A stretch of 34,174 nucleotides of DNA from positions 1-34,174 of IMG/VR virus record IMGVR_UViG_3300027800_000341; one strand, written 5' to 3'. Position numbers and translations under genes: made by a program. Below are positions 1,363 through 16,542 of the stretch, one piece after another. The notes beneath the pieces are model-generated. The model searched no databases. It saw only the letters and a list, made by a program, of their open reading frames with translations, and was not told the DNA's origin. How positions within the stretch are numbered: position 1 is the first letter of the stretch; each line of letters opens with the position of its first letter. The stretch comes from a virus.

Positions 1363-1587
1363 ATGGACGCGAAACGAAACGGTCTGGAGATCAGAGTGGA
1401 CTTGCTCCGGCGCGGGCGGTCCATCGCGGATGTGGCGGCCTTGGCAGGGGTGTCACGGCCGCTGGCCAGCCGCACCATAAGCGGCGGGGCCAATAACCGG
1501 AAGGTGTTGCGGGCGCTAGTCGCCCTTGGTGTGCCCAGGCGGCTTTTGGCGTTGCCGGAAGACATGCGGGGGAAGGAGGCGGCGTGA
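1363..1587 (+). CDS. Small HTH protein, Ner/Cro-like position
   Basis: A 74-aa protein whose ATG follows the preceding TAG without a gap, with GGAGCAGGAG (1347-1356) as ribosome site. Residues 19-45 (SIADVAALAGVSRPLASRTI) form a clear helix-turn-helix. Small single-HTH proteins immediately before the transposase gene are typically Ner-like regulators that damp early transcription in Mu-like phages. The function is inferred from size, fold and position; sequence identity to Mu Ner is not evident by eye. Its TGA overlaps the transposase ATG (TGATG), implying translational coupling. Confidence 0.65.
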   Translation: MDAKRNGLEIRVDLLRRGRSIADVAALAGVSRPLASRTISGGANNRKVLRALVALGVPRRLLALPEDMRGKEAA

Positions 1588-3671
1588 TGCCGTGCCGTAT
1601 GAACAGCATTCCTGAAACGGCAACGGCAAAACAGATCGCAGCGGCGTTGAGCGTCACGGAGCGCTCTATACAGCGCCGCGCCGAACGTGAGCAGTGGCCG
1701 CACGAAAAGCGGCCGGGCCGTGGCGGCGGCAAGGCCTACGTCATCGCATCCCTGCCGGAGCCGATACGCATCGCCCTGGCCAGACAGATTTCCCGCCCCG
1801 CCCTGGGCATCATCCAGGGCGGCAAAGCGCCCTCCACCGTGTCCGCCGCTGTCCCTCCCTCACCCCTTGCCGTAGCGCCGCCGGACCCTGCCCTCCCTCC
1901 GGCGGCGCTTGGCAAGGCGGCACTCAAAGCGGACCTGGTCCGGGCCTATCTCGACGCCAAGGAGTGGGGTCGCAAGCACGGCAAGGCCCTGGCCCGGTGC
2001 CGCGAGGCCTTTGTCATCGGCTACAACAACGGCCAAATCTGCCCGACCATCCGCGAGCAGCTCGGCACGACTAGCTGGCAAAGCCTGGAACGCTGGGCCG
2101 TGGAGCTGCGGCGTGCGGACTACGACTGCGCGGCCATCGCCCCGCGCTATGGGCTGCACAGACGGGGAGCGTGCAAGGTCACCCCGGCCGAGGAGGAACG
2201 CCTCCTGGCGCTGCTCCTGTCGCAGAGCCAGTTCAAGATCGGCACGGCCATCACTCTCATGAAGATGGACCTTTCGCGTCAGGGTGTTTCCTCGCCGTCA
2301 TCCCCTTCGACGCTACGCAACTGGGTCGAGGCCTTCCGCCGCGAGCACGCCGACGTCTGGACCCTGGCCCGGGAGGGCGAGAAGGCCTTGACCGACAAGA
2401 TAGCGCCCTTCCTGCGGCGTGACGCCGGGTTGCTCGCTGTCGGCGACGTGCTCATCGCGGACGGGCACCGCCTGAATTTCCGCGTCAGACATCCCCTGCA
2501 CGGCCGCCCCTGCCGGGCGACGCTGGTGGCCTTCGAGGACTGGGCCAGTCGCGACATCGCCGGGTTCTCGATCATGCTGGAGGAAGACCTGTGCGCCGTG
2601 CATCTGGCCCTGTACCGCTCGATCATTCGCCTGGGGAGGCTGCCCCGGGTGGTCATGCCGGACAACGGCCGGGCGTTCAAAAACAAGGTGTTCGTCGAGA
2701 GCAAGATCGACCTGACCACCTCCGGCATGGCCGGGTTGTACGGCCGCCTGGGCATCATGTGCCACTTCCCCAAGGCCTACAGCGCCCGTTCAAAGCCCAT
2801 CGAATCCTTTTTCAAGACGGCCGGACTCTCCTTTGAGAAGGCCGTGTCCAGCTACTGCGGCGGCTCCATTGCGGCCAAACCGGCCAGGATGCGGCGCAAC
2901 GAGACATTCATGCAGGAAATCGAACCCGAGGCCCTGCTTTCCATGGACGAGGCCAGCGGGCTTTTTGAATCCTGGTTGAACAGCTTTTATCGGGTGAAGC
3001 CTCATTCGGGGCTTGGCGGCAGATGTCCCGGCGAGGTGTTCGCGGCCGGGCGCGGCCAGGGTCTGGATCACGCCAGCATCCGCTATCTCCTGATGCACGA
3101 GGAGGTGGCGCACCTGCACAACAACGGTATCAAACGGTTCGGCGGAGAGTATTTTGACGAGGCCCTGTACGGCCTGCGCGACAAGGTGCTCATCCGCTAC
3201 GACTGGCACGATCTGCGCCAGATCTTCGTCTACCGCACGGACGGCAGCTACCTGTGCATGGCCAAGCGCCAGGGGGTCGTGCATCCCATGTTCAAGTTGA
3301 TCGGAGGCAAGGATGCCGAGGGTTATGCCGAATTCAAGGCGGCCCTGGCGACGCATGAAAGCCTCAAAAAAGGCACCAAGAAGATCGTCCGCAAGCTTGC
3401 CAAAGCCGGGATGATCGCCGAGGCGCGCGACATCCTGCCCGTGGCGGAGCTGGCCGAGACCGGCAGCCCGCGTCTGCCCGAGTCCCTGGAGGCCATTGAG
3501 GCCGCCCATACGCCGGACGATCCGGACATCCCCGATTTTTCCGAGCCCACCCCGCCGGTCCCGGCCGGTCCCGGGCCGCTCATCGACCCTACCAATTTGG
3601 ACTATTTTTCGACCGAGGAACTCGGCGCGGAGCTGGCCTACCAGCAACAGCGCGCAAAAACAGGGAGATAA
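1587..3671 (+). CDS. MuA-type DDE transposase
   Basis: A 694-aa transposase (Mu A is 663 aa) that carries out integration and replicative transposition of the phage genome. The N-terminal ~70 residues carry a winged-helix DNA-binding segment (TAKQIAAALSVTERSIQRRA) as in the Mu DNA-binding domain. The RNase-H-like core shows the catalytic triad D292 (LIADGHR), D359 (VMPDNGRAFKN) and E406 (KPIESFFK); the 67-residue D-D spacing equals that of MuA. The C-terminal part should contact MuB. ATG 1587 is preferred over GTG 1584 because it overlaps the upstream TGA and lies 7 nt after GGAGG (1575-1579). MuB follows 4 nt downstream. Confidence 0.96.
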   Translation: MPCRMNSIPETATAKQIAAALSVTERSIQRRAEREQWPHEKRPGRGGGKAYVIASLPEPIRIALARQISRPALGIIQGGKAPSTVSAAVPPSPLAVAPPDPALPPAALGKAALKADLVRAYLDAKEWGRKHGKALARCREAFVIGYNNGQICPTIREQLGTTSWQSLERWAVELRRADYDCAAIAPRYGLHRRGACKVTPAEEERLLALLLSQSQFKIGTAITLMKMDLSRQGVSSPSSPSTLRNWVEAFRREHADVWTLAREGEKALTDKIAPFLRRDAGLLAVGDVLIADGHRLNFRVRHPLHGRPCRATLVAFEDWASRDIAGFSIMLEEDLCAVHLALYRSIIRLGRLPRVVMPDNGRAFKNKVFVESKIDLTTSGMAGLYGRLGIMCHFPKAYSARSKPIESFFKTAGLSFEKAVSSYCGGSIAAKPARMRRNETFMQEIEPEALLSMDEASGLFESWLNSFYRVKPHSGLGGRCPGEVFAAGRGQGLDHASIRYLLMHEEVAHLHNNGIKRFGGEYFDEALYGLRDKVLIRYDWHDLRQIFVYRTDGSYLCMAKRQGVVHPMFKLIGGKDAEGYAEFKAALATHESLKKGTKKIVRKLAKAGMIAEARDILPVAELAETGSPRLPESLEAIEAAHTPDDPDIPDFSEPTPPVPAGPGPLIDPTNLDYFSTEELGAELAYQQQRAKTGR

Positions 3672-4373: not shown

Positions 4374-4931
4374 ATGGCCGCCGCCACAAAAATCCTGGCC
4401 GTGGTGCGGGCGGTCATCGCCACGAAAACCGTCGTGGACGGGCGTTTCCGGGTCTGCCGCGTGGCCCTGGCCGAGGTGGTGGAGGCGTCTGGCTGCCCCA
4501 GGCGGCCGGTGATGCGCGTGTTGGATCGGCTGGTGCGGGAGGGGTGGTTGGAACTGGTCTCCAATGACCGCATCCATGCCGACAACCTGGGAGAGGTTTA
4601 CGGCCCGGCCCGGCGCAACCCGACCTATCAGGTCATCAGGGATTTCCGGCTGCACCGGGGATACCAGGTCCGCGCCCGGGTCTCTTGCCGGGACAAGATC
4701 TGGTCAACGCTGCGGACGCTGTTGCGGTCAACGCCCTCAAACCTGGAGCGTCTGACGGGGTGCGGCAATAAGGCTGTGGCTGAATTCCTGCGCATGCTCA
4801 AGGACGGTGGATATGTGCGCGAGGTCGGCAAGGAGTCTCATGAAAAGGTTTGGGCCTTGACCAAAGATATAGGCGCCAAACGGCCTGAAACACCTCTCCC
4901 GAATCGGCGTCGAAAGAAGGGGGATGCCTGA
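4374..4931 (+). CDS. Winged-helix early phage protein
   Basis: A 185-aa basic protein beginning 2 nt after the MuB stop. Two winged-helix-like segments are visible: residues ~15-65 (ALAEVVEASGCPRRPVMRVL, then LVREGWLELV) and ~105-155 (NLERLTGCGNKAVAEFLRML, then DGGYVREV). The C-terminus is strongly basic (NRRRKKGDA). This looks like a DNA-binding accessory protein of the transposition operon; I do not recognise a named family. Its TGA overlaps the next ATG (4929-4933), so it is translationally coupled to the XRE-like gene. Confidence 0.7.
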   Translation: MAAATKILAVVRAVIATKTVVDGRFRVCRVALAEVVEASGCPRRPVMRVLDRLVREGWLELVSNDRIHADNLGEVYGPARRNPTYQVIRDFRLHRGYQVRARVSCRDKIWSTLRTLLRSTPSNLERLTGCGNKAVAEFLRMLKDGGYVREVGKESHEKVWALTKDIGAKRPETPLPNRRRKKGDA

Positions 4932-5260
4932 TGGACTGGTTGGACATCCTGCGCGACCGCGTGGCGGCCATGGGGCTGCCTGCCGTGGCCAAGGCCCTGG
5001 GCACGGCCAAATCCACCATCTCCATGGTGACCAACGGCAAGTATCCGGCCTCGACGGATCGCATCCAGGCCCGGGTGTTGGCCGTGTACGGCGGCCAGAC
5101 GGTCGCCTGCCCGGTGCTCGGCGAAATCGATGCGGCGGTCTGCGCCGACAAGCAGTCACGCGCCAGACGCATCGGCCTGCGGGCAGGCAGCCCGGAGACC
5201 CTGCGCCTGTTCAAAACCTGTTCAAACTGCCCTGTGCGGGGCGCAAAACAAGGAGGCTGA
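4931..5260 (+). CDS. XRE-like HTH protein with C-terminal cysteines
   Basis: A 109-aa protein with an N-terminal lambda-repressor-like HTH (residues 15-45, LPAVAKALGTAKSTISMVTN) and four cysteines at 60, 71, 97 and 100, the last two as CSNC near the C-terminus. A metal-binding role for the cysteines is plausible but unproven. It lies in the early operon between the winged-helix protein and DUF3164, overlapping the former by one base. It may be a second early regulator. Confidence 0.7.
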   Translation: MDWLDILRDRVAAMGLPAVAKALGTAKSTISMVTNGKYPASTDRIQARVLAVYGGQTVACPVLGEIDAAVCADKQSRARRIGLRAGSPETLRLFKTCSNCPVRGAKQGG

Positions 5261-5263
5261 CAC

Positions 5264-5449
5264 ATGCTGTCCAAGAAGATTCAAAACGTCGCCAACAGCC
5301 TGTCCCTGGTCGCCGACAAGGTTCCCGAAGAGGTCTGGAGCTTTCTGGCCGTGTGCCAGAGCGAGCTGGTCGACGCGGCCGATCTGGCCGTGGAGTTCGA
5401 GTCGCAGCCGCTGTTCCACGTCCCCGGGGGCGAGGAGGTGGCGGCATGA
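5264..5449 (+). CDS. Small early phage protein, unknown
   Basis: A 61-aa acidic protein with AAGGAGG (5249-5255) ahead of its ATG. The body reads as one amphipathic helical unit (KIQNVANSLSLVADKVPEEV) with no recognised domain. It is linked to the DUF3164 gene by an ATGA overlap (5446-5449), which supports it being translated. No function can be assigned. Confidence 0.6.
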   Translation: MLSKKIQNVANSLSLVADKVPEEVWSFLAVCQSELVDAADLAVEFESQPLFHVPGGEEVAA

Positions 5450-6054
5450 GCGCGGCGCCTGACGGATACATGCAGGACGCCCAGGGGCGGCTGGTGCCCG
5501 TGGACATGGTCAAGGACGTTGACAAGGCGCGCGACGGCCTGGTGCGCGAGATCGCGGCCAAGGCGCTGGATCTGCGCAAGGCCATGGCGAAGTTTCGTGA
5601 CGACTCCATGGGCGATGTCGCGGCGTTCTGCCAGCTCTCGGCCGAGCAGTACGGGGCCAAGTTGGGCGGCGACAAGGGCAATGTGACGCTCACCACCTAC
5701 GACGGGCAGTACAAAGTGCAGCGGTCTGTGGCCGAGTATCTGGTGTTCGACGAGCGGCTCCAGGCGGCCAAGGAACTCATCGACGAATGCATCACCGAAT
5801 GGACCGAAGGCAGCCGCGATGAACTCAAGGCCCTGATCAATGACGCCTTCCAAGTGGACAAGGAGGGACGCATTAACACCGGGCGGGTGCTGTCCCTGCG
5901 GCGGTTGGCCATCGACGACGACCGCTGGCGGCGAGCCATGCAAGCCGTGTCCGACAGCCTGCAAGTGGCTGGGAGCAAGACGTATCTGCGGCTGTATTCC
6001 CGCCGCGCGGATGGCAAGTATGAACCGATCTCACTGGATTTGGCGTCGTTCTAA
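5446..6054 (+). CDS. DUF3164 family Mu-like early protein
   Basis: A 202-aa protein of the DUF3164 type, characteristic of the early region of Mu-like phages and sometimes mislabelled sulfate transporter. Recognisable parts are the N-terminal MQDAQGRLVPVDMVKDVDK, the central LTTYDGQYKVQRSVAEYL and the C-terminal YLRLYSRRADGKYEPISLDL. Its biochemical role is not established; position suggests a transposition or replication accessory. It starts at ATG 5446, overlapping the preceding stop, with GAGGAGG upstream. Confidence 0.88.
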   Translation: MSAAPDGYMQDAQGRLVPVDMVKDVDKARDGLVREIAAKALDLRKAMAKFRDDSMGDVAAFCQLSAEQYGAKLGGDKGNVTLTTYDGQYKVQRSVAEYLVFDERLQAAKELIDECITEWTEGSRDELKALINDAFQVDKEGRINTGRVLSLRRLAIDDDRWRRAMQAVSDSLQVAGSKTYLRLYSRRADGKYEPISLDLASF

Positions 6055-6080: not shown

Positions 6081-6215
6081 GTGGACGACATCGATTTCGC
6101 GGCGGTTGTGACCACACTCGAAAACAATTGGGGTGACTTTGTCGAGTACAGCGGAGGCGAGGAATCTGCGGATCGCACACTCGACGCCTTGAAGCGGGAG
6201 GGGAATCTGGAGTGA
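6081..6215 (+). CDS. 44-aa early micro-ORF
   Basis: GTG 6081 follows a strong ribosome site (AAGGGGG, 6068-6074) and encodes 44 residues ending at TGA 6213-6215. The peptide is acidic and helical (VDDIDFAAVVTTLENNWGDF at its start). Good spacing, early-operon position and sensible composition support it. Function unknown; tiny early ORFs at this location in Mu include lytic helper genes such as kil, but no similarity is claimed. Confidence 0.5.
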   Translation: MDDIDFAAVVTTLENNWGDFVEYSGGEESADRTLDALKREGNLE

Positions 6216-6221
6216 TGCGAA

Positions 6222-6239
6222 ACCGCCCTGCGGGGCGGT
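6222..6239 (+). other. Perfect hairpin after micro-ORF
   Basis: ACCGCCC and GGGCGGT flank a TGCG loop, 7 nt after the 44-aa ORF stop. There is no T-tract, so it is more likely an RNA stability or processing element than a terminator. Confidence 0.4.
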
Positions 6240-6288
6240 CGTCTCGGCGTGGCGGCCGGGGCCTGATGAGCAGCCAGAGGGGAAGACC

Positions 6289-6531
6289 ATGTCCGCTAAT
6301 TCGTCGGACTGGCTGGTGTATCTTGGGTCAGAGGGCGCATTGCCGGTCCTGAAGGTCGAAGAGGGTGTCAGGGTTTGCGGCCGTACGGGCATGCACAGGG
6401 CATGTATCGGCCCGAATGGTCTGGTCTGCCCGGGATGTAATCGTGTGTGCCGTATCCCTGTCTCGGCGGGGCTGGCCCAGGGCGATGAGTTTCTCTCGCG
6501 GGGCAAGAGTAATCCCAAGGGGGCTCGGTGA
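6289..6531 (+). CDS. Small cysteine-rich protein, possible zinc ribbon
   Basis: An 80-aa protein preceded by GAGGGGAAG at good spacing from ATG 6289. Cysteines at 30, 39, 47, 50 and 54 include CPGCNRVC (47-54), a knuckle typical of small zinc-binding phage proteins. No family is recognised. It is the last early gene before the opposite-strand tRNA unit, whose terminator begins 10 nt after its stop. Confidence 0.55.
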   Translation: MSANSSDWLVYLGSEGALPVLKVEEGVRVCGRTGMHRACIGPNGLVCPGCNRVCRIPVSAGLAQGDEFLSRGKSNPKGAR

Positions 6532-6540
6532 TGCAAGCCC

Positions 6541-6571
6541 AAAGAAAAGTCCGCCTGGTTGCCCCGGCGGA
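6541..6571 (-). terminator. Rho-independent terminator of the tRNA unit
   Basis: Read leftward, TCCGCC (6571-6566) and GGCGGA (6555-6550) form a 6-bp GC-rich stem with a 10-nt loop that can add two more pairs. It is followed by CTTTTCTTT (6549-6541). It lies 5 nt beyond the tRNA 3' end and would end a transcript of about 108 nt. Confidence 0.7.
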
Positions 6572-6575
6572 GAAA

Positions 6576-6649
6576 TTTCGCGAGAGGGATTCGAACCCCC
6601 GACAACCCCGTTAGTTAAACAGGTGCACTATCCACTGTGCTATCGCGAC
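6576..6649 (-). tRNA. tRNA-like gene, anticodon AAC (Val-type)
   Basis: A complete cloverleaf can be drawn by hand: acceptor GTCGCGA/TCGCGAA (six pairs plus a G1-A72 mismatch), T8, D-stem GCAC/GTGC with A14 and G18-G19 in the loop, anticodon stem CCTGT/ACGGG, 7-nt loop TTAACTA, T-stem GGGGG/CCCTC with canonical loop TTCGAAT, and A73. CCA is not encoded. The anticodon would be AAC (6616-6614), reading GUU valine; A34 is rare in bacteria and T37 is odd, since position 37 is normally a purine. A35, C36 and A73 match valine identity elements. A near-consensus promoter ends about 7 nt before G1 and a terminator follows, so it is an independent leftward unit inside a rightward operon. It may be functional, specialised or decaying. 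Confidence 0.8.
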
Positions 6650-6656
6650 ATAGCCT

Positions 6657-6684
6657 ATTATAACAAATATTAGCTCTTTGTAAA
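6657..6684 (-). promoter_or_regulatory. Strong sigma70-type promoter for the tRNA
   Basis: Read leftward: -35 TTTACA (6684-6679), 16-nt spacer, perfect -10 TATAAT (6662-6657). The expected start falls at 6649-6650, the first tRNA base, so the primary transcript would have almost no leader. The -35 adjoins the gemA ribosome site (AGGA, 6685-6688) on the other strand. Confidence 0.75.
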
Positions 6685-6694
6685 CAGGACATCG

Positions 6695-7141
6695 ATGATG
6701 TTGAAAGATAATAATGTACTAGCCACGACGGCACAGATTCGCAAACTCCACGCCCTCAAGCGGGCGCTCGGATTCGACGACGACACTTACCGCGCCATGC
6801 TGGAGCAATTCGGCGCGACATCATCTAGGGACTTGGGCGGCCAGGCCATGGCTCGGTGCCTGGACGATCTGGAAGCAAAGGCCGCACAGGCGGGCGTCTG
6901 GCAGATTCGGAACATGCCGCCGAAGCCGCGCCGCCCCGGGGCGGCTTCCGAGGCCCAGGTCCGGATGGTGCGGGCGCTGTGGAAGCAGGTCAGCCGCCAG
7001 ACCACGGACCAGGACCGCGCCACGGCCCTGGACGCCCTGGTCAAGCGCCTGACCAGCAAGCCGCGCCTGACCTGGTGCGGGCATCTGGACATCGCGACGC
7101 TGGTTGCCGCCCTCGAAGCCATGGGGGCGGTCAAGGAGTAG
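6695..7141 (+). CDS. gemA: GemA-like protein (Mu gp16 family, DUF1018)
   Basis: A 148-aa protein of the GemA/DUF1018 family. Mu GemA is reported to modulate host gene expression and DNA supercoiling. The N-terminal signature is ATTAQIRKLHALKRALGFDD followed by DTYRAMLEQFG, and the C-terminal half carries a helical RPGAASEAQVRMVRALWKQV segment. Start ATG 6695 has AGGA 6 nt upstream; ATG 6698 is an alternative. It is paired with the Mor gene 3 nt downstream, as in Mu and many relatives. Confidence 0.88.
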   Translation: MMLKDNNVLATTAQIRKLHALKRALGFDDDTYRAMLEQFGATSSRDLGGQAMARCLDDLEAKAAQAGVWQIRNMPPKPRRPGAASEAQVRMVRALWKQVSRQTTDQDRATALDALVKRLTSKPRLTWCGHLDIATLVAALEAMGAVKE

Positions 7142-7144
7142 CTC

Positions 7145-7453
7145 ATGGACAAGACCATCAGCAGGGAAAATTTCGTGGCCACGGTCACCCCCGAGGACCT
7201 GGGCGGAGATATCGGCCTGGTCGCCGAGCAATGCGGCGTGAATGTGGCGGTGGAGCTTGTCCAGCGCATGGGCGGCACGCAGATCTCGGTGCCCAAGTAT
7301 GCGCTGAAGCAGGCCGCCATCCGCTACATCCGCGCCCACTACAACGGCAGCAACGCCAAGCTCTTGGTCCTGGCCACGGGGATGACCGAGCGGTTCGTGT
7401 ACGACGCGCTGGCGACCGCGCCGGTCAAGAGCGATCAATTCCGGTTGGTGTGA
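7145..7453 (+). CDS. mor: Mor-type transcription activator
   Basis: A 102-aa Mor/C family activator. The N-terminal half (DIGLVAEQCGVNVAVELVQR, then GGTQISVPK) is the dimerisation part, and the C-terminal helix-turn-helix (AIRYIRAHYNGSNAKLLVLA then TGMTERFVYDAL) binds DNA. In Mu, Mor turns on the middle promoter and C the late ones; no second family member is visible here, so this protein may serve both steps. AGGAG (7135-7139) precedes its ATG. Its 3' end overlaps a convergent opposite-strand gene by 29 nt. Confidence 0.92.
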   Translation: MDKTISRENFVATVTPEDLGGDIGLVAEQCGVNVAVELVQRMGGTQISVPKYALKQAAIRYIRAHYNGSNAKLLVLATGMTERFVYDALATAPVKSDQFRLV

Positions 7454-8400: not shown

Positions 8401-8823
8401 ATGCGATATATTGCGTTCAGCCTGATCGCCCTGGCCTTATGCGTCGGTCCCGTCCTGGCGCGGGAACCCGGCCCCGATCTCGACGCCGTTGTGGTCCGTG
8501 TGGTGGACGGCGATACCGTCAAGGTTCGGCTTACGGGAGAGATGCCGGATTTTTTCCGGGTCCAGTCCATCCGCCTGCGGCACTGCGACACGCCGGAGCT
8601 GCGGGACAAGCGGCCCGAGGTCGCGGCCAATGCCCAGGAGGCGCGGGAGTTCGTGAAGGCGCGAATCGCGCCAGGCATGCGCCTGACGCTTTTGGACGTC
8701 GGCCGCGACAAGTACGGCGGGCGGCTGGTGGCGGTTATCAATGTGGAGGGGGAGGATTTGTGCCGGTCGTTGCTTGATGCCGGATTGGCCGTGCCGTATG
8801 AGGGCGGCAGGAAAACCTGGTAA
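8401..8823 (+). CDS. Exported SNase-like thermonuclease
   Basis: A 140-aa staphylococcal-nuclease-fold protein with a Sec signal peptide (residues 1-20, ending PVLA before RE). Family catalytic features are present: metal-binding region VVDGDTVKVRL (D36, D38, T39), IRLRHCDTPEL (R58, D63, E66) and DKYGGRL (R108). It should cut DNA and/or RNA in the periplasm or outside the cell with calcium. The ribosome site is poor. It starts a run of three exported proteins ending at a strong terminator. Such nucleases could scavenge nucleotides or attack incoming DNA; neither can be decided here. Confidence 0.88.
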   Translation: MRYIAFSLIALALCVGPVLAREPGPDLDAVVVRVVDGDTVKVRLTGEMPDFFRVQSIRLRHCDTPELRDKRPEVAANAQEAREFVKARIAPGMRLTLLDVGRDKYGGRLVAVINVEGEDLCRSLLDAGLAVPYEGGRKTW

Positions 8824-9749: not shown

Positions 9750-10622
9750 ATGTCGAGACAGGGGGAAAAAACCTTGAATTTAGCGGGAGTGACGATCACC
9801 ATGCACCCCCATAGTGACGATTCCTACGTCAACCTGCTCAATGAAACTTGGGCCACCCGTCGGAAGGCAACCTTTCGAGGCAAGGAAAGAGGTGCTATCA
9901 GCCGCCCGATCATTGAACGACACGGCGATATGACTTTTACTTATATCCCTATTCTCAAGTATTATGATTTATCCCCCTTTGGCTTATGGTACAGGGAGTC
10001 CACCCAAGAGGCCGTTGAGTCCACCGAAGAAAGCCCTTTAGCGGCTATCCCCGAGGACCTGAAGCCCGAATTGATCATCATTCCCGCAGTGTTTATCAGC
10101 CCAGGGCATCAGATCATTTTCGACGCCGGGAAGATGGGGCCTTCAACCGCTGAGCGCTTCTTCCACGCTTTATTTGCCGATCCACTGTTGCTTGATCGTT
10201 TTGGCCCTGTGGACGTCACCATGATCCAGGACCATGAACAGCTTGAACGCATTCTGAGCTTGGAAACGATCACCCAACTGCGTATCTTTATCAAACGCCC
10301 CAACGCCGATGACGAAGAGTCGGATGAAGAACGAATCCAAAGACGGATGGAGAGCATGGATGTTTATCGATGGGAGCAGGTTCTTGGGGGCCAGCCCCGC
10401 CGTAGAGACTCGATCAGACCAGACGAAGGTCTGAAACCGTATATGCGGGTCGCCCTGGAGAATGGGGAGGTTCGTGCCAAGGGCTACGAGGCGGAACAAG
10501 TGGTCGAGCTTTCCACACGTACGTCCCCAAGAAGGCAGCGAGTCACGGTTCCTTCAAGCATGGGTATGGCGGAGTTCATAGAAGCTGTGGGCAGCATTCT
10601 GCCACGCTGGAGAGGTCGGTAG
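9750..10622 (+). CDS. DUF4747 family protein
   Basis: A 290-aa cytosolic protein whose overall pattern matches DUF4747: N-terminal VTITMHPHSDDSYVNLL, RRKATFRGKERGAI, a central FFHALFADPLLLDRFGPVDV block, EQLERILSLETITQLRIFIK, and a late PYMRVALENGEVRAKGYE. The family has no established biochemical activity. AGGGGGAG precedes the ATG. Its TAG overlaps the GTG of a membrane protein, so the two are translationally coupled. Base composition is lower in GC than the phage backbone, and the cassette is bounded by a terminator and by the convergent packaging block, marking it as recently acquired cargo. A sensor/effector pair for phage exclusion is a reasonable hypothesis but not shown. Confidence 0.78.
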   Translation: MSRQGEKTLNLAGVTITMHPHSDDSYVNLLNETWATRRKATFRGKERGAISRPIIERHGDMTFTYIPILKYYDLSPFGLWYRESTQEAVESTEESPLAAIPEDLKPELIIIPAVFISPGHQIIFDAGKMGPSTAERFFHALFADPLLLDRFGPVDVTMIQDHEQLERILSLETITQLRIFIKRPNADDEESDEERIQRRMESMDVYRWEQVLGGQPRRRDSIRPDEGLKPYMRVALENGEVRAKGYEAEQVVELSTRTSPRRQRVTVPSSMGMAEFIEAVGSILPRWRGR

Positions 10623-11197
10623 TGGCCGAGTTCTGGAGTCTATATAAGGGGGTCCGCAAGCTTTTTGGGGCCTATTGGTCTGCCTACGGCGGCTGGAGAG
10701 ACTTGGTCAGGTCACCGTATTTGCACGTCGCCAGCTTGTTGGCCCTGTTATCCGTGGTTTTCGCCGACCCTCAGGATCCACTCCCATTTTACGATTTGGC
10801 GCTCTCTATTTTACCCAACCTTTTGGGATTCACCCTGGGCGGCTTCGCAATCCTCATGGCTTTCGGCGATCCGGAATTTCTGGGGATGCTTTGCGGTCGG
10901 CGTCCGAACGAGGACGAGGACTTCTCTCCTTTGGTCAGCCATGCCGCCAATTACATGCATTTCTTGGTCGTCCAGGGAGTCGTGCTTATTCTTGCGGTAT
11001 TAGCCAGGGCAACAGACGTGAAATCTTGTGTGATCAATCTGGTTGGATATTTCGGCCTTTATTACGCCCTCTTTCTGAGTCTGGCTACTGTGGCCAGCAT
11101 ATTTCGTATGGTCAGACGATACGATACGTTTAAAGAGATATGTAACAGAAATCGCCAGACACCAGACACCTCTCAATCCGACAAAACTCATGAATAA
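10622..11197 (+). CDS. Four-helix membrane protein coupled to DUF4747
   Basis: A 191-aa integral membrane protein from GTG 10622 (overlaps the upstream TAG; GGAGAGG 6 nt before). Four hydrophobic segments are visible: residues ~34-49, 58-82, 109-129 and 136-162. Between helices 2 and 3 is an acidic loop (RRPNEDEDFSPL). A short amphipathic N-terminus (WSLYKGVRKLFGAYW) and a charged tail flank the core. No enzyme motif is seen. Coupled translation with a soluble protein suggests one complex; membrane effectors of abortive infection or superinfection exclusion often have this build, but that is an inference. It ends 28 nt from the convergent G-like gene, with no clear terminator between. Confidence 0.8.
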   Translation: MAEFWSLYKGVRKLFGAYWSAYGGWRDLVRSPYLHVASLLALLSVVFADPQDPLPFYDLALSILPNLLGFTLGGFAILMAFGDPEFLGMLCGRRPNEDEDFSPLVSHAANYMHFLVVQGVVLILAVLARATDVKSCVINLVGYFGLYYALFLSLATVASIFRMVRRYDTFKEICNRNRQTPDTSQSDKTHE

Positions 11198-11225
11198 CCG
11201 TTTGTATCCCGGGCCAGCCTATATC

Positions 11226-11678
11226 CTACCCCACCGCCTCGCCCAGGAACCGGGCGAAGCTCTGCACGATATCCTCTTCGTCGTCGGGGCCCAGGGTGAG
11301 GAACGGCCGAGCCGGGATCGTCACCTTGCGGCCGCGTCCGGCCTGGCCGCCGAACTGGTGGACGGCTGCGTAGACCGAATTGGTGCCGACGGTGGCGCTG
11401 GTGGCGTCGCAGTGCCGGGTGATGGACCGGGCCAGGTCGCCGCGCCGTTGCAGGATTTTCCCCGTGCTGCCTTCCTTGGCCCGTTGCCGCAGGGTGGACG
11501 CGGCCAGACTCTGCCACTTGGGGCGGCCTTCCACCTCGAAGTTCTCCTCGACGCTGTCGGCCATGATGCCCGCCGCCATGCGCATGGCCGGGGACAGGTC
11601 GCGCCCAGCGGCCGCCAGACGTTTGAGGGCGGCGGTCAACCGCGCGGAGTCGAGGGTGATTTTGATCATGTCGGACAT
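11226..11678 (-). CDS. Phage virion morphogenesis protein (Mu gpG-like)
   Basis: A 150-aa Mu G / P2 S-type protein involved in tail completion and head-tail joining. Family signatures are GRPKWQSLAASTL, LQRRGDLARSI, YAAVHQFGG and IPARPFLTLGPDD. ATG 11678 is chosen over in-frame ATG 11702 because GGAGG lies 9 nt upstream. Last gene of the leftward packaging block. Confidence 0.88.
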   Translation of the reverse strand: MSDMIKITLDSARLTAALKRLAAAGRDLSPAMRMAAGIMADSVEENFEVEGRPKWQSLAASTLRQRAKEGSTGKILQRRGDLARSITRHCDATSATVGTNSVYAAVHQFGGQAGRGRKVTIPARPFLTLGPDDEEDIVQSFARFLGEAVG

Positions 11679-11817
11679 GGGGCTTGCCTCCAGGCGGCGC
11701 AATGGTTAGAAGATATGTGAAAGGCGGTCGCGACACGGTGTCATTCTCCCGGCCGTAGCACGGACGATTGTCCGGAGCGCCATGCGGGGTTCCTGGGAGG
11801 CCCCGCCGACCGCCTCT

Positions 11818-13032
11818 TTACAACACCTTGCCCCTGCGGCGCAGCCGCGCCACATCCGCATCGCTGGTCCTCCGAAATGAGGTGACAAACGTCCCCTCGC
11901 CGCTCTTGGTGGCCTTGACCGCCGCCGCGTACCAATCCTCCCCCTTGCGCACCAGGACCACGGTCTGGTCGCTGTCCTGGACGATGAGGTCCGGTCGCCC
12001 CAGGTCGGGCAACGACTGATAGTCTCGCAGCGTCAATTCCGGGTGATGCGCCTTGTTCTTGGCCAGGGAGTCGGCCGACAGCATGGCAACCGGGTCGTGG
12101 GCCTTGATGGCCTTGGCGGCTTCGTCCGGCAGGCGCAGCACGGGCCATTGCCCTTCGGGACGTTCGACGAATCGTTTGAACCCGTCGGATCGGACTGTCT
12201 CCCGCAGGGCGGCCTCGGCCGCCTCGCGCGGTGCGGCGGCCAGCGACGCGGCCAGCTTCGGCCCCATGCCGTCCATCCAGGCCCGGCCCGGGTTGTGCGC
12301 CCAGCCCGGGTCTGTCTGCACGCGGACGCCGGTCTTGGGATTGCTGTAGATCGCCATGCGGGCCGTGCGGCCGTCGCGCGAGACGGGCACGTCCTCGTGG
12401 CTGACAAGTCCGTCCGAGGATTCGACCTGGAGGCTCTTGCGGCGCACGCGCTCGGGGGTCAGGGCGCGCACCCGGCAGCGGCAGTTCCAGCCGTTGGGCG
12501 GGTAGAACGAGGACCAGAACGGATCGTCGTGGCGCAGGGTCTTGCCGTTTAGCGCCGCGTGGGCTGGCCGGGTCCGGGAGTCCATCACGGCCACGTACAT
12601 CCAGTACGGCTGGGCCTCGGCGTTCTCGATCTGCTCACGGTAGCGGCCTGCGGCATACGCCGTGGCCATGTTCGTCTCGTAGATGGTCTTCAAGCGCCAC
12701 GGGCTGCCGAGCTGGGTCCGGCGAACCTCGCCGGTTCGCGGATCGACGACGTCCTTTTTGCCCCACCAGCCCTTGGACTGGAGGATGGGCGTCAGATCCT
12801 TTTGGAACTGGCGTAGCGTCGTGCCGGAGTCGAGGGCCTTTTGCACGGCGCCCCGGATGTCCGTGAGGATGTCCAGGCGGGTGGCCTTGGCCACGGTGAA
12901 GGCCCGGGCGTGGGCGTCGGCCAGCATCTCGTGCCAGTCGAAGGTGACCTCGTAGCCCTTGGCCTTGAAGTAGCTGATGGCCCGTTCGGGCGGCAGGCCC
13001 AGGGCGAAGGACAGGTCGGGGACGTCAGGCAT
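11818..13032 (-). CDS. Head morphogenesis protein (MuF/SPP1 gp7-like) with C-terminal nuclease-like region
   Basis: A 404-aa minor head protein (Mu gpF/gp30 family). The MuF core is clear: DSRTRPAHAALNGKTL (151-166), PFWSSFYPPNGWNCRCRVRA (171-190). After a linker (residues ~205-310) the last ~90 residues (LTLRDYQSLPDLGRPDLIVQ, VVLVRKGEDWYAAAVKATKS, TFVTSFRR) resemble the PBECR barnase/EndoU/colicin/RelE-like nuclease regions known to be appended to MuF proteins. If active, it would be an RNase carried in the capsid and injected with the DNA. The catalytic residues are not assigned. It starts 3 nt after the portal stop and is followed by a 139-nt spacer with small dyads before the G-like gene. 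Confidence 0.87.
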   Translation of the reverse strand: MPDVPDLSFALGLPPERAISYFKAKGYEVTFDWHEMLADAHARAFTVAKATRLDILTDIRGAVQKALDSGTTLRQFQKDLTPILQSKGWWGKKDVVDPRTGEVRRTQLGSPWRLKTIYETNMATAYAAGRYREQIENAEAQPYWMYVAVMDSRTRPAHAALNGKTLRHDDPFWSSFYPPNGWNCRCRVRALTPERVRRKSLQVESSDGLVSHEDVPVSRDGRTARMAIYSNPKTGVRVQTDPGWAHNPGRAWMDGMGPKLAASLAAAPREAAEAALRETVRSDGFKRFVERPEGQWPVLRLPDEAAKAIKAHDPVAMLSADSLAKNKAHHPELTLRDYQSLPDLGRPDLIVQDSDQTVVLVRKGEDWYAAAVKATKSGEGTFVTSFRRTSDADVARLRRRGKVL

Positions 13033-13035
13033 GGC

Positions 13036-14520
13036 CTATTTGGCGTCGGCCTTGGCCGACAGCCGTCCCCAGACGGCGGAGATGAAGATGGCCCGGGTGA
13101 GCAGATCCTCGAAGAGGTCCGTGTCCATATCGGGATAGACGCCGTGCAGCCGGTCGGCGATGTCCTCGACCGACCCGGCCGACTCCACCAGATCAATGAC
13201 CGGCGCAAGCAGCTTCCCGGCGATGCCCTGGAGCATCTCCGGCGGCAGTTCGGCGACGTCGTCGGTGTCGGGCGCGCCTTCCCGGAACTCCGCAGGCTTC
13301 GCTTCCGCCTTGTCCTCGGCGCCACCCACGACCTCGAAATCATCCTCGGCCAGATCGTAGGCCTTCATGAGGTACTTTTTGGTGAACTTCACCTGGCCGG
13401 TGTCGGAGAGGGTCTTGTCCCGGGTGGCCAGGGCTTGGTCCACCTCCTCTTCCTCGAACATCTCGAAGACCGGCCGGGCGTCGCAGGGGCCGAAGTTCAG
13501 CTCGCAGATCCAGTCGATGAGCGTGGCCATGGTCTGGGCCACGATCTTCTTGTCGCCGTCCTTGATCTCACCGCGAACCCGTTCATGCACCTCGGCCGCC
13601 GCCCGGGAGCCGCCCGACACGCTGGTGGTCAGGTTCTGGCCCAGGATGCAGATGGCGATGTCCTCGTCGCAGGTGGCCTTGAGGTCTTTGTAGAGCGACG
13701 ACGATCCGGCCTTGCCCGCCGCCTCGACGATGTCGGCGCTGGAACCCTCCGGAATCACCAGCACGGCGTCCTGGACGGCCCGCTCCAGGGCATCGGCCAG
13801 GTCGCGGATGGCCGCCTTGTCGGCCTGCGCGGGATGCTTGCCGATGATCCACGGCGAGCCGAACTTTTCGATGAACCGCAACCAGAACTTGAGGCCCCCT
13901 TTTTTGAACGCCACGGGCCAGAAACAACGGGACAATACCCGCTCGCCGTAGGGGTTGTCGTAGGTGGCGTTGTAGCGCGGCGCGAGGAACTTCTTCTCCG
14001 GCAACACCTCGCCCTGGAGCAAATTGGTCCTGGTGCGCAGGCGCAGGGTGTTCTCGGGGTCGAACGTGAACCACTCAATGGGCTTGCCCACCACACGATC
14101 CGGAACGGTGGCCGCGCCGTCGCGCCGCCAGACGACCTCCAGGGGGGCCATGCCGAAAAGCGGCGCGTTTAAGATCTCGCGGATGATGCTCCCGACATCA
14201 AGCCGGGTCAGGCATTTTGTCACGAATTTGGCCTGGACCGCCGGGGCGTCTCCCCGACTCACGGCCCACTCCAGGGACACCACGGCAGCCTTGCGCGATT
14301 CCACGCACGGCCCCACCCGGGCGTCGGCCAGAAGTTCCTTGTAGACTTTGATGTCCTTGCCGAGCTTGCGCAGGACCGGGTCAGGGTCTGGCAGGGACAT
14401 GGCGATGGAAAAGAAATCCGGGGAACGGTCACGGGTGGCCAACTCCTCGAAAAGCGTCCCCGCCCCCTGGTCTATCGGACGGAAATTAGTGGGACTGGTC
14501 CAGATGCCGACCTGGCGCAT
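13036..14520 (-). CDS. Portal protein (Mu gp29-like, DUF935)
   Basis: A 494-aa portal of the DUF935/Mu gp29 family, forming the dodecameric channel through which DNA enters the head. Recognisable segments include the N-terminal SPTNFRPIDQGAG, the central IIREILNAPLFGMAPLEVVW, NPYGERVLSRCFWPVAFKKG, and ILGQNLTTSVSGGSRAAAEV. GGAGG lies 9 nt before ATG 14520. The 113-nt gap to the terminase stop holds no gene I can support. Confidence 0.93.
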   Translation of the reverse strand: MRQVGIWTSPTNFRPIDQGAGTLFEELATRDRSPDFFSIAMSLPDPDPVLRKLGKDIKVYKELLADARVGPCVESRKAAVVSLEWAVSRGDAPAVQAKFVTKCLTRLDVGSIIREILNAPLFGMAPLEVVWRRDGAATVPDRVVGKPIEWFTFDPENTLRLRTRTNLLQGEVLPEKKFLAPRYNATYDNPYGERVLSRCFWPVAFKKGGLKFWLRFIEKFGSPWIIGKHPAQADKAAIRDLADALERAVQDAVLVIPEGSSADIVEAAGKAGSSSLYKDLKATCDEDIAICILGQNLTTSVSGGSRAAAEVHERVRGEIKDGDKKIVAQTMATLIDWICELNFGPCDARPVFEMFEEEEVDQALATRDKTLSDTGQVKFTKKYLMKAYDLAEDDFEVVGGAEDKAEAKPAEFREGAPDTDDVAELPPEMLQGIAGKLLAPVIDLVESAGSVEDIADRLHGVYPDMDTDLFEDLLTRAIFISAVWGRLSAKADAK

Positions 14521-14633
14521 GAGGGGTGACCTCCGGGCATGGGGTTTGCGGCGTTCAAAAGCCGTTCAATTTTCGTCCTGCCGTGCGATGTGGCCGTCGC
14601 ATCGCCGGGGCGTCCTGTCGCGCCGCAAACGGC

Positions 14634-16124
14634 CTAGAATTTGTCGAGCAGGTCGCCAGCCTCGCGGCGGCCGCGAGAGACGACGCTGTCTTCGGTCAGG
14701 CCGGTGGCGAAGGACTCCCCGGCATGCACGGCCAGGGCGGCGGCCCAGAAATGATCGGCGTGGCCGGTGGCGTCGCTCCTCTCGGCGTCGAAGCGGGGCA
14801 GGCCCGTGGAGGTCGTGATCTTTTGCACGCTGTGCAGCGACCGAGACACCTCCGGATCAATGGGGATCAGGAAGCCGTGATCCTCCAGGACATCTTTGAG
14901 GCCCACGGCCAGGGCCTCCTTATGGGCATTGGTGAAGTCGACGCCTTCGACGCGCGAACCGAAGAGGTCGCGGGCATCTTCGGTCAACTGGCGGCCGATG
15001 CCGCCCTGGTCGATGCAGGCCCGGCCGCCGGAACGCAGCACGTAGGGCAAAAGTGCGTGCAGCACGTAGCGCTGCACGCGAAACGGCATGCGCGCCATGG
15101 TGATGACGGCTGCGGTGAATCGGGCCAGCTCGCCGCGCCGCAGCAGCCAGATCACGGACAGATCCCTGGTGCGGCCGATGTCCATGCCCAGGTCGAGAGG
15201 GTCGCCGTTCTCCGCCAGATGTGCGGTCAGCTCCCGGGCCTTGGTCGGCCACCAGGCCGGATCGGCCTTGGCGAGCTTGTAGTGCTTCCGGGCCTTGACG
15301 GCCTGGTGCACCAGCCTGGACGCCCATTCCGGCGACGGATCGATGTATTCGTCCTCGGCGGCCCGGAGGAGTTCCCAGGTCAACCAGGCGGTGGCGTCGT
15401 CCTGCGGGTCCAGTTCGTATTCTTCGAGCCAGACCATGGGATCGGCCACCAGTTCGCGCAGGCTGTCCACGCTGCGGATGCGGCCATCCTCGTCTTTGAG
15501 GACCAAGCCCTCGCGGATGGCGTCATGGATGGTGGTCCGGTGGTGCGAATAGGCCTTGTTGCGGGTCAGCTCGAAAAACTTGGTCTTCCTGCCGCGATGG
15601 GTCGAGGCGACGCGGACTCCGTAGCCGCGCGTAATGGCGGGCACGGCCGCGCGCCAGATGCCCCAATCGTCCTTGTGCAGGGCGAATTCGTCCAGGTAGA
15701 CGTTGCCGGAAAATCCCGGGATGGTGTCGGGGTTGGACGGCACGAGGTTCAGGAATCGGTCGCCCGGGAAGGCGATCAGCCAGGCGTTGTTTTTGTCCGG
15801 GACCAGCCTGCCCTCGGTCAGAAGCGCTATGGCCTTGATGTGCCGCCGCATTTCCCGGCCGGAGCGAAAGACCTGCCGGGCGCTGGCCGATCCGTAGACG
15901 GATTCGATGGGTCGTGGCGAGAGCGCGGTCTCCGTGACGGCTTTGAAGGTCAGGGCGAAGGATTTGCCAGCCTGCCTTGAGGCCGCCCATTCGATGCCCG
16001 CCGCCTTGTCGTCGACGAAGCGGCGCTGGTACGGCAACATGATGCCCAGGGTGGCCTTGAGGCGTTCTCTGGTGTCACGGTCCTGCCCGTAGAGCTTTTC
16101 AAATTTATTGCCGGTCTTTGCCAT
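14634..16124 (-). CDS. Terminase large subunit (Mu gp28-like)
   Basis: A 496-aa headful packaging motor. The ATPase domain has Walker A-like AASRQAGKSF (47-56) and Walker B NVYLDEFA (141-148, D145 E146). The RNase-H-like nuclease has D315 (GMDIGRTRDLS), D372 (CIDQGGIG) and D457 (HADHFW). ATG 16124 fits best, with GGGA 9 nt upstream and 20-nt overlap with the small-subunit gene; in-frame ATGs at 16139 and 16274 are less likely. Confidence 0.94.
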   Translation of the reverse strand: MAKTGNKFEKLYGQDRDTRERLKATLGIMLPYQRRFVDDKAAGIEWAASRQAGKSFALTFKAVTETALSPRPIESVYGSASARQVFRSGREMRRHIKAIALLTEGRLVPDKNNAWLIAFPGDRFLNLVPSNPDTIPGFSGNVYLDEFALHKDDWGIWRAAVPAITRGYGVRVASTHRGRKTKFFELTRNKAYSHHRTTIHDAIREGLVLKDEDGRIRSVDSLRELVADPMVWLEEYELDPQDDATAWLTWELLRAAEDEYIDPSPEWASRLVHQAVKARKHYKLAKADPAWWPTKARELTAHLAENGDPLDLGMDIGRTRDLSVIWLLRRGELARFTAAVITMARMPFRVQRYVLHALLPYVLRSGGRACIDQGGIGRQLTEDARDLFGSRVEGVDFTNAHKEALAVGLKDVLEDHGFLIPIDPEVSRSLHSVQKITTSTGLPRFDAERSDATGHADHFWAAALAVHAGESFATGLTEDSVVSRGRREAGDLLDKF

Positions 16125-16542
16125 CGAAATCGATCCCATAGACCGTGGACAGGAGGTCCTTGACGTCCCTGGCGGTTTCTTCCGGTGTGGTTTTTTTATC
16201 CTCGGCGACGGGCACGGCCACGGCCTCGTAGTCCTTGACCTTGACCAGGTTCGGCAGCAGGCGCAGCAGGGCATAAAGCTGGCCGGTGGGGGTGTCCTTG
16301 CCCTCGGCCATGTCGGTGCGGATCTTCGTCAGCAGATCCTTGCCGAACTCGTACAGCTCCTCGTGAAAGCTGCGGCGGCTGGCCAGATAGGCCCGGCGCT
16401 TGGCGTCCCAGTCGCCCTTGCCCTTCCAGTTCTGGATGGTGCGGACGGACACGGACAGCCGACCGGCGATCTCGTCCAGGGTGCTTTGATCGATGACGTA
16501 GAGGCGCTCGGCCTCCAGGCCGTGAAACTGCCCCTTAGCCAT
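16105..16542 (-). CDS. Terminase small subunit-like protein (Mu gp27-like, DUF1804)
   Basis: A 145-aa protein with an N-terminal HTH (STLDEIAGRLSVSVRTIQNW) that should recognise the packaging start on phage DNA and load the large subunit. The rest is helical, with LYALLRLLPNLVKVKDYEAV. ATG 16542 has GGAGG 9 nt upstream; the in-frame extension to 16599 overlaps the preceding gene. It overlaps the large-subunit gene by 20 nt and the gp26-like gene by 8 nt. Confidence 0.87.
   Translation of the reverse strand: MAKGQFHGLEAERLYVIDQSTLDEIAGRLSVSVRTIQNWKGKGDWDAKRRAYLASRRSFHEELYEFGKDLLTKIRTDMAEGKDTPTGQLYALLRLLPNLVKVKDYEAVAVPVAEDKKTTPEETARDVKDLLSTVYGIDFDGKDRQ

Follow-up and report, generated by a model that had tools for sequence, protein, structure and literature searches.

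A single tRNA unit with an arginine-type body and a valine anticodon between two early genes of a Mu-like phage: a probable non-coding moron

The window analyzed here is the whole virus record of a Mu-like phage, with a length of 34,174 bases. A small tRNA unit is situated in its early region, and by comparison with related phages it appears to be an extra gene and no normal part of the phage. It is probably a non-coding moron placed between two adjacent early genes, whose product would be an Arg-derived RNA with a Val anticodon. The reasons for which phages retain tRNA genes are not settled; most phage tRNAs are grouped and the roles of single ones are hard to isolate. A lone isotype-switched tRNA moron, found in one phage but not in its close sister, would be a clean case, as one 0.17-kb unit could be removed or added to ask for the role of a single phage tRNA, codon supply being already unlikely. 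The features of the unit and its neighbourhood are listed in the table.

Table. Features of the tRNA unit and the surrounding early region (window coordinates)
Feature	Position	Strand	Basis or remark
MuA-type transposase	1584-3671		
DUF3164 gene	4924-6054		
Type II hammerhead ribozyme	6215-6279	+ (early strand)	75.4 bits; outside the tRNA unit
Left neighbour, 80-aa ORF with cysteine motif	6289-6531	+	directly before gemA in the sister phage
Whole insertion, absent in the sister phage	6529-6700	.	comparison with the sister phage (L002); TGATG at each end
Predicted intrinsic terminator	6541-6571	-	hairpin about 6571-6550 and TTTTCTTT tract 6548-6541; folding and sequence reading
tRNA gene	6576-6649	-	74 nt, no encoded CCA; anticodon AAC, U37, A73; ARAGORN and Rfam
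Arg-type D-loop AGUGGAUA (A20); G1-A72 mismatch	within 6576-6649	-	tRNA comparison
Predicted sigma-70 promoter, TTTACA-16-TATAAT, extended -10 (TGTTATAAT)	6657-6684	-	motif scan; inside the GemA leader
Right neighbour, GemA (PF06252), early operon	6695-7141	+	
Mor-like activator	7145-7453		

The tRNA gene and its signals

An earlier note, made from the sequence alone, had described at this place an autonomous tRNA unit on the strand opposite to a Mu-like early operon, with promoter, cloverleaf and terminator within 144 nt, and had proposed a covariance-model search as a check. ARAGORN detected a single tRNA in the 34,174 bases, a tRNA-Val with the anticodon AAC at 6650-6575 on the minus strand. 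The Rfam family RF00005 matched the same strand at 6649-6576 with 42.7 bits, above its gathering score of 29 bits (E value 2.4e-7 for 1.5 kb and 5.5e-6 for the whole window), so the search upheld the tRNA and both programs agree. The score is low, as the tRNAs of three reference genomes nearly all reached 49-77 bits and three degenerate ones 30-37 bits. The molecule forms a cloverleaf with the invariant bases of the tRNA family. Among its 21 stem pairs 20 are formed, the broken one being 1-72, and the tertiary-contact bases U8, A14, G18, G19, U33 and the T-loop are all intact. The A34, the U37 (T37 in the DNA) and the G1-A72 mismatch that the note had pointed out are all present. Position 37 is a purine in 141 of the 141 other tRNAs compared here, against U in the phage tRNA. 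A match to the SpF41 sRNA overlapping the same site was dismissed because its score was under the cut-off.

The putative promoter agrees with the sigma-70 consensus in 11 of 12 positions and has a TG preceding the -10 element. No other site with at least 10/12 was found when each position of the window was scanned on both strands (about 68,000 tests), and shuffling of its own AT-rich upstream sequence gave at least 11/12 in 77 of 200,000 cases. The predicted start is a purine 6-8 nt beyond the -10 element, A6651 or G6649, which leaves a leader of 0-2 nt before G1 and agrees with the near-absent 5' leader of the note. On the other side of the tRNA, the terminator hairpin has a predicted energy of -14.5 kcal/mol. 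It was not listed by a simple terminator scan, probably because of its interrupted stem. The predicted full transcript is more stable than its shuffles (z = -2.9). The 11/12 promoter, the 42.7-bit tRNA and the hairpin with its U tract together occupy 6684-6541 of the minus strand, so the arrangement claimed in the note, a unit with its own signals among early genes of the opposite strand, was borne out.

From this anatomy we infer how the unit may be transcribed, processed and timed. In the prophage, host sigma-70 polymerase would transcribe the unit against the direction of the repressed early operon, starting no more than 2 nt from the mature 5' end and terminating at the hairpin, after which the host would trim the trailer and add CCA. 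After induction, early transcription across the same DNA would oppose the minus-strand transcription, so the product would be mainly a lysogen-stage RNA. The same geometry raises the question of an antisense role, as the early mRNA stretch that separates the 80-aa ORF from gemA is complementary to the transcript, whose promoter lies within the gemA leader. The transcript might damp GemA and the downstream early genes including the Mor-like activator, either by opposing transcription or by pairing with early mRNA. However, an antisense RNA does not need a tRNA fold, the RNA overlaps the coding sequence of neither neighbour and the sister phage does without the unit, and both routes taken together appear improbable.

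Insertion between two early genes

The closest relative found, IMGVR_UViG_3300048576_000489 (L002, referred to as the sister phage), is 84-94% identical over most of the window. It does not possess the tRNA unit, and its 80-aa ORF abuts gemA. In a more distant prophage (L122), gemA is likewise immediately preceded by a small cysteine-motif protein, and the tRNA unit is absent. As these two relatives have the same arrangement, the sister layout is read here as the ancestral state, while a loss by the sister is conceivable. The inserted stretch is flanked by TGATG, read from the sequences at 6529-6533 and 6696-6700, and the sister has one copy of it. The pair fits a short duplication or microhomology, for which five bases are weak evidence.

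Screening of about 140 related loci around gemA or DUF3164 revealed no intact tRNA. The sole ARAGORN call among them was malformed, with a two-base anticodon, and lies about 0.75 kb downstream of gemA in locus L104. Only one copy of the tRNA unit is known. The note had also suggested looking for conservation in related phages; on this point it was not supported, as the unit is missing at the locus in every relative found, including the one with about 90% identity. This absence rules out a conserved component of the phage and points to an accessory insertion, and it is not a sign that the unit is unreal.

The moron concept was introduced by Hendrix and co-workers. As published, morons of temperate phages are distinguished by disrupted collinearity, deviating GC content and their own promoter and terminator (PMC2920897). 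All these features recur here: the extra gene is found between genes which are adjacent in a close relative, it is accompanied by a promoter and a terminator as sequence signals, and its GC content is 49% compared to 64% for the phage. Unlike known morons, the product is a tRNA and not a protein, and the unit is placed on the strand opposite to its operon. With tRNA-dependent lysogeny the unit shares a temperate phage carrying a tRNA, but that system requires the phage to integrate site-specifically into a tRNA gene of the host and to carry a tRNA of matching isotype (PMC10865867). It does not fit, because the phage has a MuA-type transposase; the part of the ORFs that was screened gave this enzyme and not a tyrosine integrase. 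A remnant of an attachment site was also ruled out by the full-length tRNA, its promoter and terminator and the MuA-type transposase.

Ancestry and possible roles of the tRNA

To place the tRNA, it was compared with 141 other tRNAs from the loci gathered here (142 with the phage tRNA). The D-loop pattern GGA[TC]AG, which is GGAUAG in the phage tRNA, was found in 32 of 34 tRNA-Arg and in none of 107 others, counts which serve as a guide and not as a census since the set is skewed to query-like tRNAs. With the anticodon loop masked, the best matches of the body were tRNA-Arg(ACG) by a small margin, and apart from the D-loop, Pro, Thr and Trp bodies match only slightly less well than tRNA-Arg. 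Cellular and phage tRNA-Arg(ACG) share with it this D-loop, A34, similar stems and a similar T-arm, and on these features the body is of tRNA-Arg type. Descent from a tRNA-Arg(ACG) is most likely. Differences are found at positions 35-37, which are ACU and not CG-purine, at the mismatched 1-72 pair and at position 73, which is A compared to G in the closest tRNA-Arg(ACG). Within the set, A34 occurs in 15 tRNA-Arg(ACG) and one phage tRNA-Thr(AGT). The rare A34 emphasized in the note is thus present but is no isolated oddity, since the body is tRNA-Arg and tRNA-Arg(ACG) normally carries A34; what stands out is the alteration of positions 35-37. A34 was probably inherited, and positions 35-37 altered from C, G and purine to A, C and U.

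A near-identical donor tRNA was looked for without success in about 700 genomes of two phyla and in phages and plasmids, the best match reaching about 80% identity, and an exact-pattern search in IMG/VR also gave none. One pattern match from IMG/VR was rejected as donor, being another phage tRNA-Arg, as were 17 further ones which are not tRNAs. Large plasmids of Tsukamurella and Mycolicibacterium (L116, L117) have clusters of 8-10 tRNA genes within 3 kb, and some of the closest matches to the phage tRNA are the tRNA-Arg(ACG) encoded there.

For the function, the passenger or relic is ranked first, followed by counter-defence, a poor Val tRNA and the antisense RNA discussed above. As a passenger or decaying relic, the tRNA gene and its signals would have been acquired by chance and would now be drifting, and this is the favoured reading, though still a tentative one. 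The unit is missing from all relatives found. The low Rfam score compared to cellular tRNAs, U37 which occurs in none of the 141 others, and the G1-A72 mismatch could be signs of decay, and CCA is not encoded. Random decay, however, should strike the stems too, yet 20 of 21 pairs and the tertiary-contact bases are intact, and promoter and terminator are near consensus. Compared to the three closest tRNA-Arg(ACG), 3-6 stem pairs are changed on both sides with pairing retained, and such paired double changes show that the fold was retained since the divergence from those tRNAs. Much of that divergence may have occurred in the donor, and it is no proof of selection in the phage.

The anticodon loop directs attention to counter-defence, in which the RNA would protect the infected or lysogenic cell from a tRNA-cutting system of the host. 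It might serve either as a competitor that has a tRNA-Arg body and is not cleaved, or as a stand-in for a Val tRNA. Here 3-4 of 7 loop bases differ from the closest tRNA-Arg(ACG) and pair 1-72 is broken, with the stems otherwise still paired, and the unit has a strong promoter of its own. Phage tRNAs with altered anticodon loops were predicted to be resistant to anticodon nucleases (PMC10264068), and supply of tRNA was shown to overcome retron-Eco7 and PrrC (PMC11555353). The phage tRNA resembles these defence-evading tRNAs (PMC10264068, PMC11555353): it is phage-borne, its anticodon loop is altered and its promoter is strong. It differs from them in being a single gene of a small temperate phage. 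The published phage tRNAs keep the anticodon of the attacked tRNA, and a replacement of this type would be expected to have its loop altered close to the cut site. In contrast, this tRNA has AAC on a tRNA-Arg body, differs from its apparent ancestor in the anticodon and reads no arginine codons, so it is unlikely to be a true spare for tRNA-Arg and would not replace it. Only a decoy or a Val target would fit, and U37 is unfavourable for decoding. With both forms counted jointly, counter-defence is possible but doubtful. A specific version is that a tRNA-Arg(ACG) was repurposed as a non-decoding decoy, expressed from the prophage as a one-gene moron, with the Arg body kept for recognition and the loop changed so that neither the tRNA-Arg nuclease nor the ribosome uses it; this is a rather remote proposal.

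The anticodon AAC together with A73 matches known valine identity elements, which for E. coli ValRS are A35, C36 and A73. The tRNA might therefore work as a weak Val tRNA reading GUU codons. The codons themselves argue against much demand: GTT accounts for 11% of Val codons in early genes, 7% in late plus-strand genes and 4% in late minus-strand genes, and for 18% in a cassette at 9750-11720. The note had read mainly GTC and GTG for valine in the late genes and had found the case for codon supply weak, and both readings agree with these counts. U37 is expected to impair decoding. With U37 unique among 142 tRNAs and GTT at 4-11% in the core genes, codon supply is unsupported and was ruled out as the main role. 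A20 is also of tRNA-Arg type, and a poorly working Val tRNA is regarded as unlikely.

Hammerhead ribozymes and other genes of the phage

In the early operon, about 300 bp separate the hammerhead ribozyme from the tRNA unit downstream of it. Of the related loci scanned, 12 of 18 around gemA and 13 of 16 around DUF3164 have a hammerhead upstream of gemA, and L006 and L123 have two copies each. In most Mu-like relatives scanned, it is followed by variable small genes before gemA. Type II hammerheads were also detected in the isolate phages RcapMu (L165, 2479-2549) and YPCBV-1 (L166, 2506-2570), where the deposited annotation has no feature or a hypothetical protein. A 2011 paper reported hammerheads in prophages that flank single genes which vary (PMC3088659). 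The content of the interval from the ribozyme to gemA differs between relatives, with an inserted gene just after the ribozyme in the sister phage and the tRNA immediately before gemA in the window, and this interval looks like a cargo site. The inserted gene of the sister (L002, 3359-3770) is positioned behind the hammerhead and before the 80-aa ORF, and resembles nucleotide-processing enzymes by eye. Search of IMG/VR with peptide patterns of the 80-aa ORF gave no match; the patterns were too specific, and the sister copy was reached via gemA.

Protein matches pointing to a host were limited to 48-57% for a Desulfobacterota sample and to less than 60% for plasmids and phages. Head and contractile-tail genes are situated farther downstream in the window. 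The portal gene (13036-14520) and flanking long ORFs are on the minus strand at 11818-16274, whereas the plus strand carries the tail genes and the remaining head genes, a strand split unlike Mu. The plus-strand cassette at 9750-11720 is composed of three genes and is largely absent from the sister. Its first gene encodes a DUF4747 protein, and weak DUF4747 matches have been reported for RexA-like prophage exclusion proteins. The cassette is possibly prophage-borne phage-defence cargo. A staphylococcal-nuclease-like protein is encoded among the early genes at 8401-8823 on the plus strand. C4 antisense RNAs were observed in two Mu-like relatives, at 2918-3000 in L018 and at 3749-3828 in L095.
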